From Wenjunlia tyrosinilytica (GTDB taxonomy: Bacteria; Actinomycetota; Actinomycetes; Streptomycetales; Streptomycetaceae): a stretch of 64,000 nucleotides of DNA. Where the stretch lies: the NCBI RefSeq assembly GCF_014646055.1, contig NZ_BMMS01000008.1, forward strand, positions 1 through 64,000. Direction: 5' to 3'. Position numbers and translations under genes: made by a program. Below the pieces are notes generated by a model. That model searched no databases, was not told where the DNA came from, and saw only the letters and a list, made by a program, of their open reading frames with translations. Positions 5,388-51,803 of this stretch are shown here, one piece after another; the stretch's first letter is position 1, and every line of letters starts with the position of its first letter.

Positions 5388-6770
5388 CTAGATGTGCCGC
5401 AGAAGCGCCGCGGGCTGCTCGACGCAGTCCGCGACGAAGCGCAGGAAGCCGCCCGCCGTGCCTCCGTCGCACACACGGTGGTCGAAGGTGAACGACAGCT
5501 GGGTGACCTGGCGGACCGCCAACTCCCCTCCCACCACCCATGGCTTGGGTGCGATGCGCCCGACGCCCAGCATCGCGGCCTCGGGGTGGTTGATGATCGG
5601 CGTCGAGCCGTCCACACCGAAGACGCCGTAGTTGTTGAGGGTGAAGGTCCCGCCCGTCAGCTCGGCGGGGGTGAGGGTGCCCTGGCGGGCGGCCTCGGTG
5701 AGGCGGGCGAACTCCGCCGACAGCTCCGCGGTGGTCATCCGGTGCGCGTTCCGGACGACCGGGACGACGAGGCCTCGCTCGGTCTGCGCGGCGAAGCCGA
5801 GATGGACCGCGGGGAGCTGGACGATCTCCTGCCGGTCGAGGTCGACGGTGGAGTTGAGCGCCGGGTGGCGGGCGATCGCCGCCGTGGTGATCCGGGCGAG
5901 TACGGCGAGCAGGCTCACCTTCTCGGCCCCGGCCGCGTTCATCGCGGCACGGGCCGCCAGCAGCTCGGTCGCGTCGGCGTCCACCCAGCAGGTGGCGTCG
6001 GGGATCTCGCGGCGGCTGCGGGAGAGCTTGTCGGCGACAGCGCGGCGCAGGCCCTTGAGGGGGATGCGGACGGCTTCTTCCGCGGCCTGCCCGGCGGTGT
6101 CCGGGGCTGTCGCGCTCGGGGCGGTCGCGCTCGGGGCGGCTTCGACGCTCCCGGCGGCGGGCCCGGCCACCGCTCGTTCGACGTCCGAGCGCAGGATCAG
6201 GCCGTCGGGACCGCTGCCGGTGAGGGTGCGCAGATCCAGGCCGTGCTCCCGGGCGAGTCGGCGCACGAGCGGCGAGATGACGGCGACGGGGCCGATGGCG
6301 GCCGGTACGGGTTCGGGCGGGGGCGCCGGCTCGGGGCGCACCGGGGCGGCCGGGGGCCGCGCCGGGGCCGAGGAGGCCTTGGGGCGCACCCTGCGGCGGC
6401 GGGTCGTGGCGCCGGACGTACCGTAGCCGACGAGGACATTCCCGGAACCGCTGTCGGCATCGTCCGCGCCGACGGCGCGGTCCCCGTCGCCAGTGCTCCG
6501 CCCGCCACCGGCGGACGACTCGGGCTCGCCCACCGCCACGGTCACCAGCGGGCTTCCCACGGGAACCTCGGAGCCCTCCTCACCGAAGCGGGCGGTGACC
6601 ACACCCGCGTACGGGCAGGGCACCTCGACCACGGCCTTGGCGGTCTCCACCTCGACCACGTGCTGGTCGACGGCCACATGGTCGCCGACCTCGACGAGCC
6701 AGCGGACGATCTCCGCCTCGGTCAGTCCCTCCCCGAGGTCCGGGAGGAGGAATTCACGAACGACTGCCAT
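5388..6770 (-). CDS. bkdC: Branched-chain 2-oxoacid dehydrogenase E2 (dihydrolipoamide acyltransferase)
   Basis: A 460-residue E2 core protein. A lipoyl domain covers residues 1-80 with the lipoylated lysine in VETAKAVVEV (K45). A Pro/Arg-rich linker follows, then a peripheral subunit-binding domain (VISPLVRRLAREHG…GPDGLILRSDVE) and the acyltransferase domain, with the active-site FDHRVCDGG near the C-terminus. It transfers the branched acyl group from E1 to CoA. It follows the E1beta gene by two bases and ends the operon. In Streptomyces such complexes degrade Val, Leu and Ile and supply branched starters for fatty acids and polyketides. Confidence 0.9.
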   Translation of the reverse strand: MAVVREFLLPDLGEGLTEAEIVRWLVEVGDHVAVDQHVVEVETAKAVVEVPCPYAGVVTARFGEEGSEVPVGSPLVTVAVGEPESSAGGGRSTGDGDRAVGADDADSGSGNVLVGYGTSGATTRRRRVRPKASSAPARPPAAPVRPEPAPPPEPVPAAIGPVAVISPLVRRLAREHGLDLRTLTGSGPDGLILRSDVERAVAGPAAGSVEAAPSATAPSATAPDTAGQAAEEAVRIPLKGLRRAVADKLSRSRREIPDATCWVDADATELLAARAAMNAAGAEKVSLLAVLARITTAAIARHPALNSTVDLDRQEIVQLPAVHLGFAAQTERGLVVPVVRNAHRMTTAELSAEFARLTEAARQGTLTPAELTGGTFTLNNYGVFGVDGSTPIINHPEAAMLGVGRIAPKPWVVGGELAVRQVTQLSFTFDHRVCDGGTAGGFLRFVADCVEQPAALLRHI

Positions 6771-6772
6771 CG

Positions 6773-7830
<1,058 letters not shown>

Positions 7831-7834
<4 letters not shown>

Positions 7835-9573
7835 CGGCCCGCTCCTTCGTGGTCGTGCCCGTGCCCGTGCCCGGCCTCGGCGTCGAGTTCGGCACGCAGC
7901 ATGGCGGCCTGCTCGCGCAGTTGGGCCGTCTGCTCGGCGTAGACATGGGTGAACAGGTCCATTGGGTCGAGCACCGGGTCCGCGTTCATGCGCTCGCGAA
8001 GGTCGGCCGCCATCGCCTCGGCGGCTTCCTTGGCCTCGCGCACGCCGTCGTCGTCGAGCAGGCCGAGCTCGTAGAGCTGCCGCTCCAGCAGGGCGACGGG
8101 GTCGTGGTGGCGCCAGGCATCCACCTCGTCGGCGCCCCGGTAGCGGGTGGCGTCATCGGCGTTGGTGTGGGCGTCGATGCGGTAGGTGACGGCCTCGACG
8201 AGGGTGGGTCCGCCGCCTTCACGGGCGCGGCGCACGGCGTCGGAGAGCACGGTGTACATCGCGGCGGCGTCATTGCCGTCCACCAGCCGACCCGGCATGC
8301 CGTAGCCGACCGCCTTGTGGGCGAGCGAGGGCGCATGGGTCTGCTTGGCCAGGGGCACGGAGATGGCGAAGCCGTTGTTCTGCACGAGGAAGACCACGGG
8401 GGCCTGCCAGACGGCGGCGAAGTTCAGGGCCTCGTGGAAGTCGCCCTCGCTCGTGCCCCCGTCCCCGACCATGGCGAGCGCCACGGTGTACCCGGAGTCA
8501 CCCCCGTCCCCGCCCTTCTCCCGTTGCCTGTCCCCTGCGGTCGCACTCCGGCTCGACTCCGCTCCGGCCGGATACCCCTCCCTCGTCCCTCGGTCGGGCC
8601 CTCCAACCTGCGCTGCATCTCGCCTACGCCGCTCCAAGCCACCTGCGGTCGCACTCCGGCTCGACTCCGCTCCGGCCGGATACCCCTCCCTCGTCCCTCG
8701 GTCGGGCCCTCCAACCTGCGCTGCATCTCGCCTACGCCGCTCCAAGCCACCTGCGGTCGCACTCCGGCTCGACTCCGCTCCGGCCGGATACCCCTCCCTC
8801 GTCCCTCGGTCGGGCCCTCCAACCTGCGCTGCATCTCGCCTACGCCGCTCCAAGCCACCTGCGGTCGCACTCCGGCTCGACTCCGCTCCGGCCGGATACC
8901 CCTCCCTCGTCCCTCGGTCGGGCCCTCCAACCTGCGCTGCATCTCGCCTACGCCGCTCCAAGCCACCTGCGGTCGCACTCCGGCTCGACTCCGCTCCGGC
9001 CGGATACCCCTCCCTCGTCCCTCGGTCGGGCCCTCCAACCTGCGCTGCGTCTCGCCTACGCCGCTCCATGTCCTGCTTGAGGCGCGCCGCGTGCGCCAAC
9101 CCCACCGCATGGGGCATCTGCGTGGCCAGGGGGGTGCTCAGCGGGGCGACACGGTGCTCGGCCGGGTCGTAGCCGGTGTGCCAGTCGCCACGCAGCAGGG
9201 TCAGCGCCTCCACCGGGTCGACGCCCCGGGCGGTCACGGCCAGGGTGTCGCGGTAGCTGGGGAAGAGCCAGTCCCGCGGGCCCAGGGCCAGGGCGGCGGC
9301 GACCTCGCACGCCTCCTGCCCGGTGCTGGACGGATAGACGGCCAGCCGGCCCTGCTTGGTCAGCGCGGTGGCCTGGGTGTTGTAGCGGCGGCCGGAGACG
9401 AGACGGCGGTACAGGCTCCGCAGCAGATCGGGGTCCATGTCCCTGGCGGCGGCAGTGCCCAGCACGCGCAGCGGCTCGGTGTCCGGAAGCAGCGGCTCGG
9501 GCTCGACTCGCGGCCGCCAGGCGGGCGCGCCGTCGGCACTGGGGCCGGGGCCGGGCTGCTCGAGGACGGTCAT
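7831..9573 (-). CDS. bkdA: Branched-chain 2-oxoacid dehydrogenase E1 alpha subunit with five-fold 36-residue repeat insert
   Basis: 580 residues, about 180-190 longer than I would expect. The E1alpha framework is intact on both sides of the insert: RYNTQATALTKQGRLAVYPS and WLFPSYRDTLAV before it, and the thiamine-diphosphate motif GDGGTSEGDFHEALNFA…VQNN after it. Between HAARLKQDM (ends at residue 169) and YTVALAMVGDGG lie five tandem copies of a 36-residue unit beginning ERRRRDAAQVGG. They fall in a surface loop just before the cofactor strand, so the enzyme may still fold. ATG at 9573 has AGGAGG 8 bases upstream. It heads the bkd operon. Confidence 0.88.
8534..9073. repeat. Five tandem copies of a 108-bp repeat inside bkdA
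   Basis: Units start at about 8534, 8642, 8750, 8858 and 8966, each 108 bp and essentially identical. The only differences I find are one A/G change in the last unit (…CTGCGTCTCGCC instead of …CTGCATCTCGCC) and the outer edges. The period is divisible by three and the unit is free of stops in several frames on both strands. There are no spacers, so it is not a CRISPR array. No other copy was noticed in the window. Confidence 0.97.
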
Positions 9574-9630
9574 GACGAGCACCTCCTGATGAAAGGGGGT
9601 CGAGCGGAGCGCGCAGTGTTGCTGCTACCT

Positions 9631-11389: not shown

Positions 11390-13034
11390 GGCGCCGACTC
11401 CGCTCCACGGCCGCGCGGCGCCGCAGCCGCACGCAGGGCGCGTACCGGCCGCCCGGATGGAGCGCGCCGAGCGCGTCGAGCAGGTCCACGACTCGGGCGG
11501 CGGTCAGCCGCCGGCCCCACTCCAGCGGCCCCAGGGGGTAGTTGACGCCGAGCCGCATCGCGGTGTCGACGTCCTCCGGTGAGGCGACGCCCCGCGCGAC
11601 GGCGTCGTTGGCGAAGTCGACCAGCATGGCCACGGTCCTGGCGACGATCATTCCGGGGATGTCGTCGATCAAGCTGACCTGCTTGCCGAGCGCCTGGAAG
11701 AGCCCGGCCGCCTCCTCGACGGCGCTCGGTGGCGCGGTGTCGGAAGCGGCCAGCGCGATCCGTCCGGCGGTCCGGTAGTCCAGCGCCAGGTCGAAAAGGA
11801 CGACCGGGGGGCCTTCGGCGGTCGTCGCGGGAAGCCCGGTGGTCAGGCGCAGCACGGCCCCACCGGGGAGCTCCAGCCGGCCGGGGGAGCCGGGGACGCC
11901 CGATCCATGGCCCCCTTGCTCCTGGCCCCCTTGCTCCTGGCCTCCCTCTGGGCCTCCTTGCTCCGGGCCTCCCTGTTCCGGGCCTCCCTGTTCCTGGTCT
12001 GCCTGTTCCGGGCCTCGCGCGCCGTGGTCCTGGCCCCGCACGACCTCGATTCCGGCCTCCTCCAGCATCGGCACCAGCTCCACCGCCGGTCCGAGGTCGC
12101 CGTGGAGGACGACCGACTCGGGGGCCTTGGCGGGCGCGGCCGTGTGCGGTATCGGCCGCTCGGCGCCCTCGCCGTAGGCGTACCAGCCGTGCCCGCTCTT
12201 GCGCCCGATGCGGCCCGACTGGACGAGCTGCCGCTGCGCGAGCGAGGGGGTGAACCTGGGGTCGAAGCCGAACGCCGTCCAGACCGACGTCGTCACCGCC
12301 TCGTTGACGTCCTGCCCGATGAGGTCGGTGAGCTCGAACGGCCCCATGGCGAACCCGCCGCTCTCGCGCAGCACGGCGTCGATCGTCGCCGGGTCGGCCC
12401 CCCGCTCCTCGTACACGCGGAACGCCTCGGCGTAGAACGGGCGGGCGACGCGGTTGACGATGAAGCCGGGGCTGTCGGTGCACCGCACCGGTGTCTTCCC
12501 CCAGGCCCGCGCGGTCGCGTGGGCACGGTCCGCCGCGGCCCGGTCGGTGGCCGCTCCCGAGACCACCTCGACCAGGGGGAGCACGGGGGCCGGGTTGAAG
12601 AAGTGCAGGCCCACGAAGCGGCCCGGCAGGCGCAGCGGGGCCGCGACGGCGGTCACCGGCAGGCTGGAGGTGTTCGTGGCGAGCAGGCAGTCGTCGGCGA
12701 CGACGCCTTCGAGGTCGGCGAAGAGCCGCTGCTTGACGGCCAGGTCCTCGACGATGGCCTCGACCACGAGTCCGGCCGGGGCCAGTTCCGACAGCTGCCC
12801 GGCGGCGACCAGCCGGGCACCGGCCCCGGCCCGTTGCTCCGCGCTCATGCGGCCCTTCTCCACCAGCCGGTCGAGCCGCTCGCCGATGGCCCGCGCGGCC
12901 CGCTCCGCGGTGCCGGGCGCGGCGTCGTAGAGCAGAACGGGGTGTCCCGCGGTCAGCGCGACCTGGGCGATTCCCCGCCCCATGGTGCCGCTGCCGACCA
13001 CGGCCACGGTCCGATCGAGTGAGAGCTCGTCCAT
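11382..13034 (-). CDS. paaH: 3-hydroxyacyl-CoA dehydrogenase PaaH
   Basis: 550 residues. N-terminal NAD-binding domain with VAVVGSGTMGRGIAQVAL and the substrate segment RFVGLHFFNPAPVLPLVEVV; a 3HCDH C-terminal domain (TPVRCTDSPGFIVNRVARPF) follows, and a second related C-terminal domain lies at the end, as in phenylacetate PaaH proteins. It oxidises 3-hydroxyadipyl-CoA in lower phenylacetate breakdown. Between the two halves (about residues 334-385) is a Gln/Gly/Glu/Pro repeat (EQGGP units of 5 residues). It is divergent from paaN and shares its operator. Confidence 0.85.
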   Translation of the reverse strand: MDELSLDRTVAVVGSGTMGRGIAQVALTAGHPVLLYDAAPGTAERAARAIGERLDRLVEKGRMSAEQRAGAGARLVAAGQLSELAPAGLVVEAIVEDLAVKQRLFADLEGVVADDCLLATNTSSLPVTAVAAPLRLPGRFVGLHFFNPAPVLPLVEVVSGAATDRAAADRAHATARAWGKTPVRCTDSPGFIVNRVARPFYAEAFRVYEERGADPATIDAVLRESGGFAMGPFELTDLIGQDVNEAVTTSVWTAFGFDPRFTPSLAQRQLVQSGRIGRKSGHGWYAYGEGAERPIPHTAAPAKAPESVVLHGDLGPAVELVPMLEEAGIEVVRGQDHGARGPEQADQEQGGPEQGGPEQGGPEGGQEQGGQEQGGHGSGVPGSPGRLELPGGAVLRLTTGLPATTAEGPPVVLFDLALDYRTAGRIALAASDTAPPSAVEEAAGLFQALGKQVSLIDDIPGMIVARTVAMLVDFANDAVARGVASPEDVDTAMRLGVNYPLGPLEWGRRLTAARVVDLLDALGALHPGGRYAPCVRLRRRAAVERSRRHE

Positions 13035-49554: not shown

Positions 49555-49632
49555 GACTTGTCGGTTCCTCCTCCGCCGGAGCGGTCCCGCCCGCCCACTC
49601 AGGACCTCGAAGACCTCGAAGGTCTCCGAAGT

Positions 49633-49760
49633 CCCGAAGACTCGATGTCCCGAAGATGCGATATCCCGAAGACCCGATGTCCTCAAGACCTGATGTCCTC
49701 AAGACCCGATGCCTTCAAGACCCGATGCCTTCAAGACCCGATGCCCTCAAGACCCGATGC
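49633..49760. repeat. Eight-copy 16-bp tandem repeat
   Basis: Units of CCTCAAGACCCGATGC type at 49633, 49649, 49665, 49681, 49697, 49713, 49729 and 49745, each 16 bp with a few changes, followed by a partial unit and preceded by a degenerate run from about 49599. It lies between the rhomboid gene and the cyclophilin gene. Confidence 0.93.
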
Positions 49761-49820
49761 CCTCTAGACGTGGACGGACGGGACGGCCGCGATGTTCCCG
49801 TGGGCCGTGCCGGGGCTCGG

Positions 49821-51386: not shown

Positions 51387-51550
51387 TGTGAAAACTGTGA
51401 AAACCCCGAGGTGAACGCCCTGGCGGGAGAACCCTGACGGGCAATCGCCAACGGGGGAGCCACATGGCGGCGGGACGGTCCGGAGCGGTGCCTCCGGCCC
51501 GTTCCGCCGCCGTCTTGTCCCGGCTGCGCGGCCCAGCCGCCGTGTCCCGG

Positions 51551-51690
51551 CTGTCGTGTCCCGGCTGTCGTGTCCCGGCTGTCGTGTCCCGGCTGTCGTG
51601 TCCCGGCTGCGGTGCCCCTGCCGTCGTGTCCGAGCCGTCCTGTCCCGGCTGCGGTGCCCCTGCCGTCGTGTCCGAGCCGTCCTGTCCCGG
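51551..51690. repeat. 14-bp and 42-bp tandem repeats
   Basis: Four copies of CTGTCGTGTCCCGG (14 bp, 51551-51606), then two identical 42-bp units (51607-51648 and 51649-51690) beginning CTGCGGTGCCCCTGCC. The 417-bp region (51387-51803) has no confident gene. A 100-codon frame (51464-51766) with a plausible ribosome site reads through it, giving CPGC motifs; I treat it as unproven. Confidence 0.93.
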
Positions 51691-51803
51691 CTGCGGTGCC
51701 CGGCTGTCCTGTCACATCCGCACGGGTTGCGTCGTCCTCCCTGCGACAGCTTGCGACGGCCCATGACGGCCCCTGACGGCCCCCGAAGAAGAAGGCGAGA
51801 CCC

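Follow-up and report, generated by a model that had tools for sequence, protein, structure and literature searches.

The best-known palindromic repeats that lie in frame within core enzymes are those of Rickettsia, and mycobacterial interspersed repetitive units (MIRU) overlap the stop codons of neighbouring genes. The sections of PMC10969869 that deal with the Rickettsia palindromic elements (RPE) give them a length of about 150 bp, ten families and 44 insertions in R. conorii, and describe MITEs, REP, ERIC, BOX and SPRITE-like sequences as short non-autonomous repeats located between or in genes, some of which form in-frame fusions. MIRU are presented, in the corresponding part of PMC2734929, as units of 40-100 bp that are scattered at 41 places in M. 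tuberculosis and occur in tandem.

The window analysed here, a stretch of 64,000 nucleotides of Wenjunlia tyrosinilytica, carries within an E1 alpha gene a tandem array that is probably the expansion of an interspersed, mobile hairpin repeat of Streptomycetaceae and some other Actinomycetes. Like RPE, as they appear in the relevant part of PMC10969869, the element is palindromic and dispersed, lies in frame in unrelated metabolic genes and may contribute an encoded peptide. Unlike RPE, it has a unit of about 97 nt, often lies over stop codons, commonly forms tandem arrays, uses two reading frames and is hosted by Actinomycetes; the likeness is one of kind. With MIRU, as outlined in part of PMC2734929, it shares short actinobacterial units that are both scattered and in tandem. 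Like MIRU, it also overlaps stop codons (38 of 68 arrays, nine host genes). This likeness goes by description, and the element itself was matched outside the family in at least G522, G560, G635 and G639 (394 genomes, ten candidates scored in each). With MITE-type repeats it has in common that it is short and lies both between genes and inside them, sometimes in frame; it differs from them in its tandem arrays and in its junction repeats, which vary in length (9-27 bp) or are absent. As in Rfam RNA families, a conserved structure is accompanied by covariation; an Rfam search of the array at E ≤ 5 gave no match. No description of the hairpin family was found among the papers listed by our literature searches, which covered open-licence papers and included Streptomyces repeats. 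The element would best be read as one that behaves like RPE within genes and like MIRU at their ends.

Tandem Repeats Finder reported the array as a single one at 8534-9068 on the minus strand, with a period of 108, 5.0 copies, 99% matches and a score of 1063, the runner-up in the window scoring 251. Four units are identical, namely the last in the gene (8534-8641, with its hairpin core at 8538-8638) and those at 8642-8749, 8750-8857 and 8858-8965; like the fifth, they were recovered by a genome search with the unit and by a structure model. The fifth unit, nearest to the gene start (8966-9068), is 99% identical across 103 bases, and the match of the hairpin model to it extends to 9070. A GAC/GAT change between the units, read by eye, is synonymous. 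The five nearly identical 108-bp units claimed in the earlier note were thus borne out by Tandem Repeats Finder and by the unit comparison; of the extent 8534-9073 given there the start stands, and the end lies at about 9068. The array is in frame within the minus-strand ORF 7831-9582 (probable ATG at 9573) and is translated as five units of ERRRRDAAQVGGPDRGTREGYPAGAESSRSATAGGL, the final one being shorter at its end. A search for exact inverted repeats on the array found none; the palindrome is interrupted by internal loops, and it was the alignment fold that detected it. A Pfam Cecropin match on the insert (25.7 bits against a cut-off of 25) was rejected as a repetition artefact, as no single stretch passes. 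Elsewhere in the window, less regular tandem arrays occupy 51485-51720 and 49626-49769 (periods 14/42 and 16/48), and a degenerate 15-bp repeat at 11908-12016 encodes a GPEQGGPEQGG-like linker in an ORF that by eye resembles 3-hydroxyacyl-CoA dehydrogenase.

According to family models, the product of the ORF is E1 alpha of a 2-oxoacid (pyruvate) dehydrogenase. It matches PF00676 (E1_dh) with E = 1.2e-67 and TIGR03181 with E = 3.4e-120 and 401 bits, slightly below the model cut-off of 411. The gene is annotated here as a branched-chain-type E1 alpha at 7831-9573 with an inferred start codon; the next gene, an open frame for E1 beta (6773-7834), and an open frame for the E2 acyltransferase (5388-6764, start approximate), both assigned by family models, lie on the same minus strand. 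The name bkd is taken from the earlier note and is given by gene order. The motif GDGGTSEG (8443-8466, minus strand), which we take to be the thiamine-diphosphate motif, follows the insert in gene direction. The insert had been placed just before this motif; it is indeed upstream of it, not directly adjoining, since about 22 codons lie between the array and the motif and these include some 15 extra lineage-specific residues, DRQREKGGDGGDSGY.

At E ≤ 1e-60 its genome has no second E1 alpha, and losing the enzyme would therefore probably be of consequence. Matches to E1 alpha occurred in 33 of 37 genomes, own included. The comparison of E1 alpha with relatives, suggested in the earlier note, revealed that the insertion site is empty at all 29 other loci read, where a short turn, ARLxGDDxVALA or similar, takes its place. 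One in-frame unit at the same turn occurs, outside the 29, in another genus (G101, L074: ARLRGD-IERRRRAEAQGAGSDRGTRAGHAAGAEASRSATD-DTVVA). The E1 alpha units of the window and L074 are 82% identical, less than the identity of the window unit to the LipB copies (87 and 85%) or to the Cmk copy (84%), and the two E1 alpha sites may reflect either one insertion or two. The empty sites, together with the dispersed copies described below, exclude the case that the note had set against its own view, namely relatives with the same repeat number and no dispersed copies, and the array is not an old E1 alpha loop. In yet another genus (G036, L130) the element is found at the 3' end of bkdA and not inside it, by eye between bkdA and bkdB.

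An AlphaFold2 model of E1 alpha built with 26 sequences had a mean pLDDT of 65.9 and a pTM of 0.64, and 298 of 580 residues reached a pLDDT of at least 70. Residues 192-357, which correspond to the insert, were below 50 (about 30) and were placed between helix 148-179 and strand 365-369; short core stretches also fell below 50, including residues 372-375 in GDGGTSEG. The insert is predicted to be disordered, and the enzyme with a disordered repeat of about 180 residues probably still works. The short turn at 29 of 29 other loci and the predicted disorder agree with the length-tolerant loop position that had been proposed for the insert.

When its own genome (G000) was searched with the 108-bp unit, 14 copies were found at four loci, and the structure model found the identical 14. 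Five lie in E1 alpha, four (period 102) after guaB, four (period 105) inside hrpB, where the array opens with a partial unit, and one between pstA and pstB. The repeat family that had been suspected in this genome is therefore present, and it is widespread in Streptomycetaceae. The R1 sequence model detected copies at E ≤ 1e-3 in 12 of 61 genomes, own included, and in 0 of 24 outside the family. At E ≤ 1e-8 it detected them in at least 79 of 394 sampled Streptomycetaceae genomes, own included, a lower bound because ten candidates were scored per genome. Class samples, scored with the same ten candidates per genome, yielded at least G522 and G560 outside the family among 296 genomes, plus G635 and G639 among 394, and G635 holds 19 copies. 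One exact pattern is carried by Streptomyces humicola, S. exfoliatus NRRL B-2924, Streptomyces sp. ISL-94, ISL-87 and HNM0574, Actinacidiphila oryziradicis and one Streptomycetaceae MAG. The megaplasmid of Streptantibioticus cattleyicolor also carries the element, two records of this species being the only matches among plasmid records; a search of phage records gave no match. G209, an assembly of 2 contigs, has an array of seven copies, and G211, of 1 contig, one of four. The 12 copies closest in sequence to the unit of the window share 76-87% identity with it, the closest four lying in LipB (two), Cmk and another E1 alpha.

Several further observations concern individual loci. The related hairpins of other actinomycete families are those at L139 (G522), L140 (G560), L176 (G639) and L207-L218 (G635). 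The element lies at the 3' end of lipA at L072, L077, L079, L080 and L087 and inside lipB at L064 and L070; that two lipoylation genes and a 2-oxoacid dehydrogenase serve as hosts is probably a coincidence. At L034 a TPP riboswitch (RF00059; 21-134, minus strand) is situated about 1.4 kb from an element copy, and this riboswitch in the flank was the sole Rfam match at gathering scores among 15 further element loci.

The reading frame is kept at 11 loci in 7 host genes of 9 genomes, a count of the in-frame loci alone. The hosts are E1 alpha (window, L074), HrpB (L010), LipB (L064, L070), CobN (L069, L071, L075), PucD (L135), a membrane-protein-like ORF (L068) and a C-terminal extension of Cmk (L065). 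Family models back HrpB, LipB (L070), CobN (L069) and Cmk, with PucD just below the cut-off, and the remaining hosts were named by eye. The LipB site is empty at all 22 loci read, including that of the own genome. The likeness to in-frame Rickettsia palindromic elements that had been drawn for the array thus extends to several unrelated enzymes. By eye, seven loci in five genes share one frame of the element and four loci in two genes share another. Periods range from 87 to 113, plus one of 60, among the 34 arrays kept (three arrays below 85% self-identity are omitted from the period counts), around a core of about 97 nt. The multi-copy coding arrays have periods of 105, 105, 105 and 108, all four divisible by three, whereas among non-coding arrays only 8 of 30 periods are, in line with selection, acting on the host gene, for an intact frame. 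The divisibility by three that had been ascribed to the unit itself therefore does not hold as an intrinsic property, and the frame appears to be filtered by the host gene and not designed into the unit.

Arrays at stop codons outnumber the 11 loci inside genes. The start of 38 of the 68 arrays, a total that omits one duplicate locus, lies -5 to +45 nt from a coding-like stop codon of the same strand, compared with 2.1% of 11522 random points and with 1 of 68 arrays on the other strand, this lone case being an in-frame CobN copy. The rule used for this count tags the in-frame loci L010, L064, L065, L068, L071 and L075 as 'other' and L069 as 'opp'; L045, which is a partial match of 50 nt, enters the count as 'span'. 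The stop-codon cases span nine host genes in all, and 24 of the 38 share one thiolase C-terminus (tested at L085: NF005890). The other hosts are guaB, pstA, lipA, catalase, mycothiol-dependent formaldehyde dehydrogenase, bkdA of G036 and two unidentified genes. Family models were applied to one locus each of guaB, lipA, catalase and the formaldehyde dehydrogenase, and pstA, bkdA of G036 and the remaining lipA loci were named by eye. Across genera the thiolase copies are orthologs; the G522 copy, from another family, also lies at this gene end. In 30 relatives the thiolase gene ends in ERLS-stop or ERMS-stop without exception (30/30); read by eye, 27 of these gene ends are empty, one has the element, one a degraded element and one a short footprint. 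Since the thiolases end in this way regardless, host sequence makes up the first 18 nt of the thiolase element. At the 3' end of the G006 thiolase (L242), two gene-end copies lie about 16-20 nt apart with no hairpin, resembling an excision or deletion footprint.

The element is an imperfect palindrome of about 97 nt, and the fold of 12 copies gave a full-length imperfect hairpin. In a MAFFT alignment of 63 copies from different loci, made without structure, 98.0% of 1128 cells were standard pairs against a shuffled mean of 85.3, and 14 of 18 pairs had changed on both sides; covariation was 0.430 compared with 0.186 in shuffled and 0.049-0.095 in slid controls, the hairpin structure being derived from the same alignment that was used for its test. 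As 23 of the 63 copies are orthologous thiolase copies, the analysis was repeated with the other 40, where 97.6% of cells were paired (shuffled mean 84.6%, slid 34-43%) and a double change was seen at 14 of 18 pairs (shuffled mean 5.5, slid 3-7). By eye, the stem variants include GAG/CTC, GCG/CGC, GGA/TCC and AGG/CCT, and the apical GAGGRACGA is near-constant. The unit is thus palindromic, as the comparison with the Rickettsia elements had implied, and by alignment fold and covariation it forms a hairpin. Folded singly, the window unit was unremarkable with DNA parameters (z 0.35) and modest as RNA (z -2.38), so the case for the hairpin rests on covariation. The consensus fold was -31.0 for the sense and -13.0 for the antisense strand. 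Wobble cells comprised 151 G.T and 5 A.C, where independent columns predicted 188 and 55; two pairs with a U.G consensus supply 94 of the 151, and without them 57 G.T stand against 5 A.C. Because the fold itself scores G.U as a pair, the antisense alignment was also folded, and on the pairs chosen in this way wobbles again pointed to the sense strand (34 against 11). The asymmetry of folds and wobbles implies that it is the sense strand that folds, as RNA or as sense single-stranded DNA. On the sense strand, compensatory changes maintain the pairing of the palindrome.

Of 21 junctions picked by hand, 11 (a raw count) show host sequence again on the far side of the element, as an exact repeat of 9-27 bp; the other 10, including the junction in the window, lack a repeat of 9 bp or more. 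In LipB of G070, GTGGAGCAGCG, which an empty relative also has, flanks the element on both sides, so that in LipB, as at thiolase, the element begins with host sequence. Of the 12 G635 loci read, nine begin at stop codons that belong to different genes and have stems resembling the end of their own gene; three loci were dropped from the test (an N run, a degenerate first copy, no clear gene end). At these nine loci the own gene end recurs downstream in direct orientation with 8.56 of 10 matches (other loci 7.22; 8 of 20000 permutations) and within the stem in inverted orientation with 8.44 of 10 (other loci 7.33; 17 of 20000 permutations). That stems match the ends specific to each gene could be due not to insertion but to selection or to template-switch repair.

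We infer the mobility of the element, and with it a moving enzyme and any role as RNA. The element would spread into short sequences similar to its 5' arm (GAGCGGC-like), giving the order target-hairpin-target, and recombination or slippage between the repeats would then expand the units. In E1 alpha the insertion would have entered the turn that connects a helix to the strand before GDGGTSEG, a place where an insert without stops and of a length divisible by three may be tolerated; at gene ends, a hairpin at the 3' end of the transcript could affect termination or mRNA stability. A bolder version of this scheme, which we regard as quite unlikely, makes the element a bacterial counterpart of SINEs, that is, a non-autonomous structured RNA element with an RNA or single-strand intermediate that would prime at sites like its 5' arm and copy the target on both sides and into the stem. 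Such priming sites would often be Glu-Arg codons plus a stop codon, so that the hairpin would be fitted to each host gene and survive inside ORFs.

Other explanations of the data have to be weighed against a mobile repeat. That copy number five is wrong or the array chimeric is very unlikely: the assembly is a draft of 172 contigs, and short reads, if it was made from them, may have led to a miscount of the four identical 108-bp units, yet the ORF is open through all units, the genome has two further arrays and similar ones occur in the genomes of one or two contigs (G209, G211). A gene-specific functional loop of E1 alpha that expanded in this lineage would account for the in-frame, near-identical units and the lineage-specific residues alongside, but it is contradicted by the dispersed copies in unrelated genes, the four nearest copies among them, and by the predicted disorder, and we hold it to be extremely improbable. 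A MIRU-like minisatellite, immobile and copied locally, would explain the likeness between loci by an old shared family with vertical descent and loss. Tandem arrays with locus-specific periods, the position over stop codons and the orthologous thiolase copies, with the same gene end occupied in G522, are in line with it; however, local duplication is unable to carry the core to a new gene, and copies in unrelated hosts are alike (76-87%) while the E1 alpha and LipB sites are empty in relatives, so that this alternative appears unlikely.

The hairpin itself invites two further explanations. It could be a functional RNA, a terminator or mRNA stabiliser selected at 3' ends, with the genic copies as accidents, as suggested by the sense-strand pairing, the near-constant apical GAGGRACGA (by eye) and the location on the same strand as the upstream gene. 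The 27 of 30 thiolase relatives that are empty at the gene end argue that the element is not required there, and no U run was noticed by eye after the hairpin; we consider such a role possible, and it is compatible with mobility. Alternatively, the compensatory changes could stem from template-switch repair of imperfect palindromes, in which one arm is copied onto the other, and not from RNA function. The stem base in G635, which matches the last codons of each gene (the inverted match given above), speaks for such repair, whereas arm copying alone predicts no strand asymmetry of wobbles and folds, and this origin of the changes seems rather doubtful.

With the array read as a mobile hairpin repeat, its length possibly lends itself to strain typing, and long insertions in lipB, cobN and bkdA may be insertions of the element and not annotation errors. 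The target-copying pattern, if confirmed, calls for a mobility mechanism. The role of the in-frame repeats of Rickettsia in protein evolution is called unexplored in the part of PMC10969869 that treats it. E1 alpha and LipB make the same gene available with and without the element, and the stop-codon hairpin is a measurable RNA question. A second such system, in free-living and genetically tractable bacteria, would make the role of these repeats in protein evolution testable.
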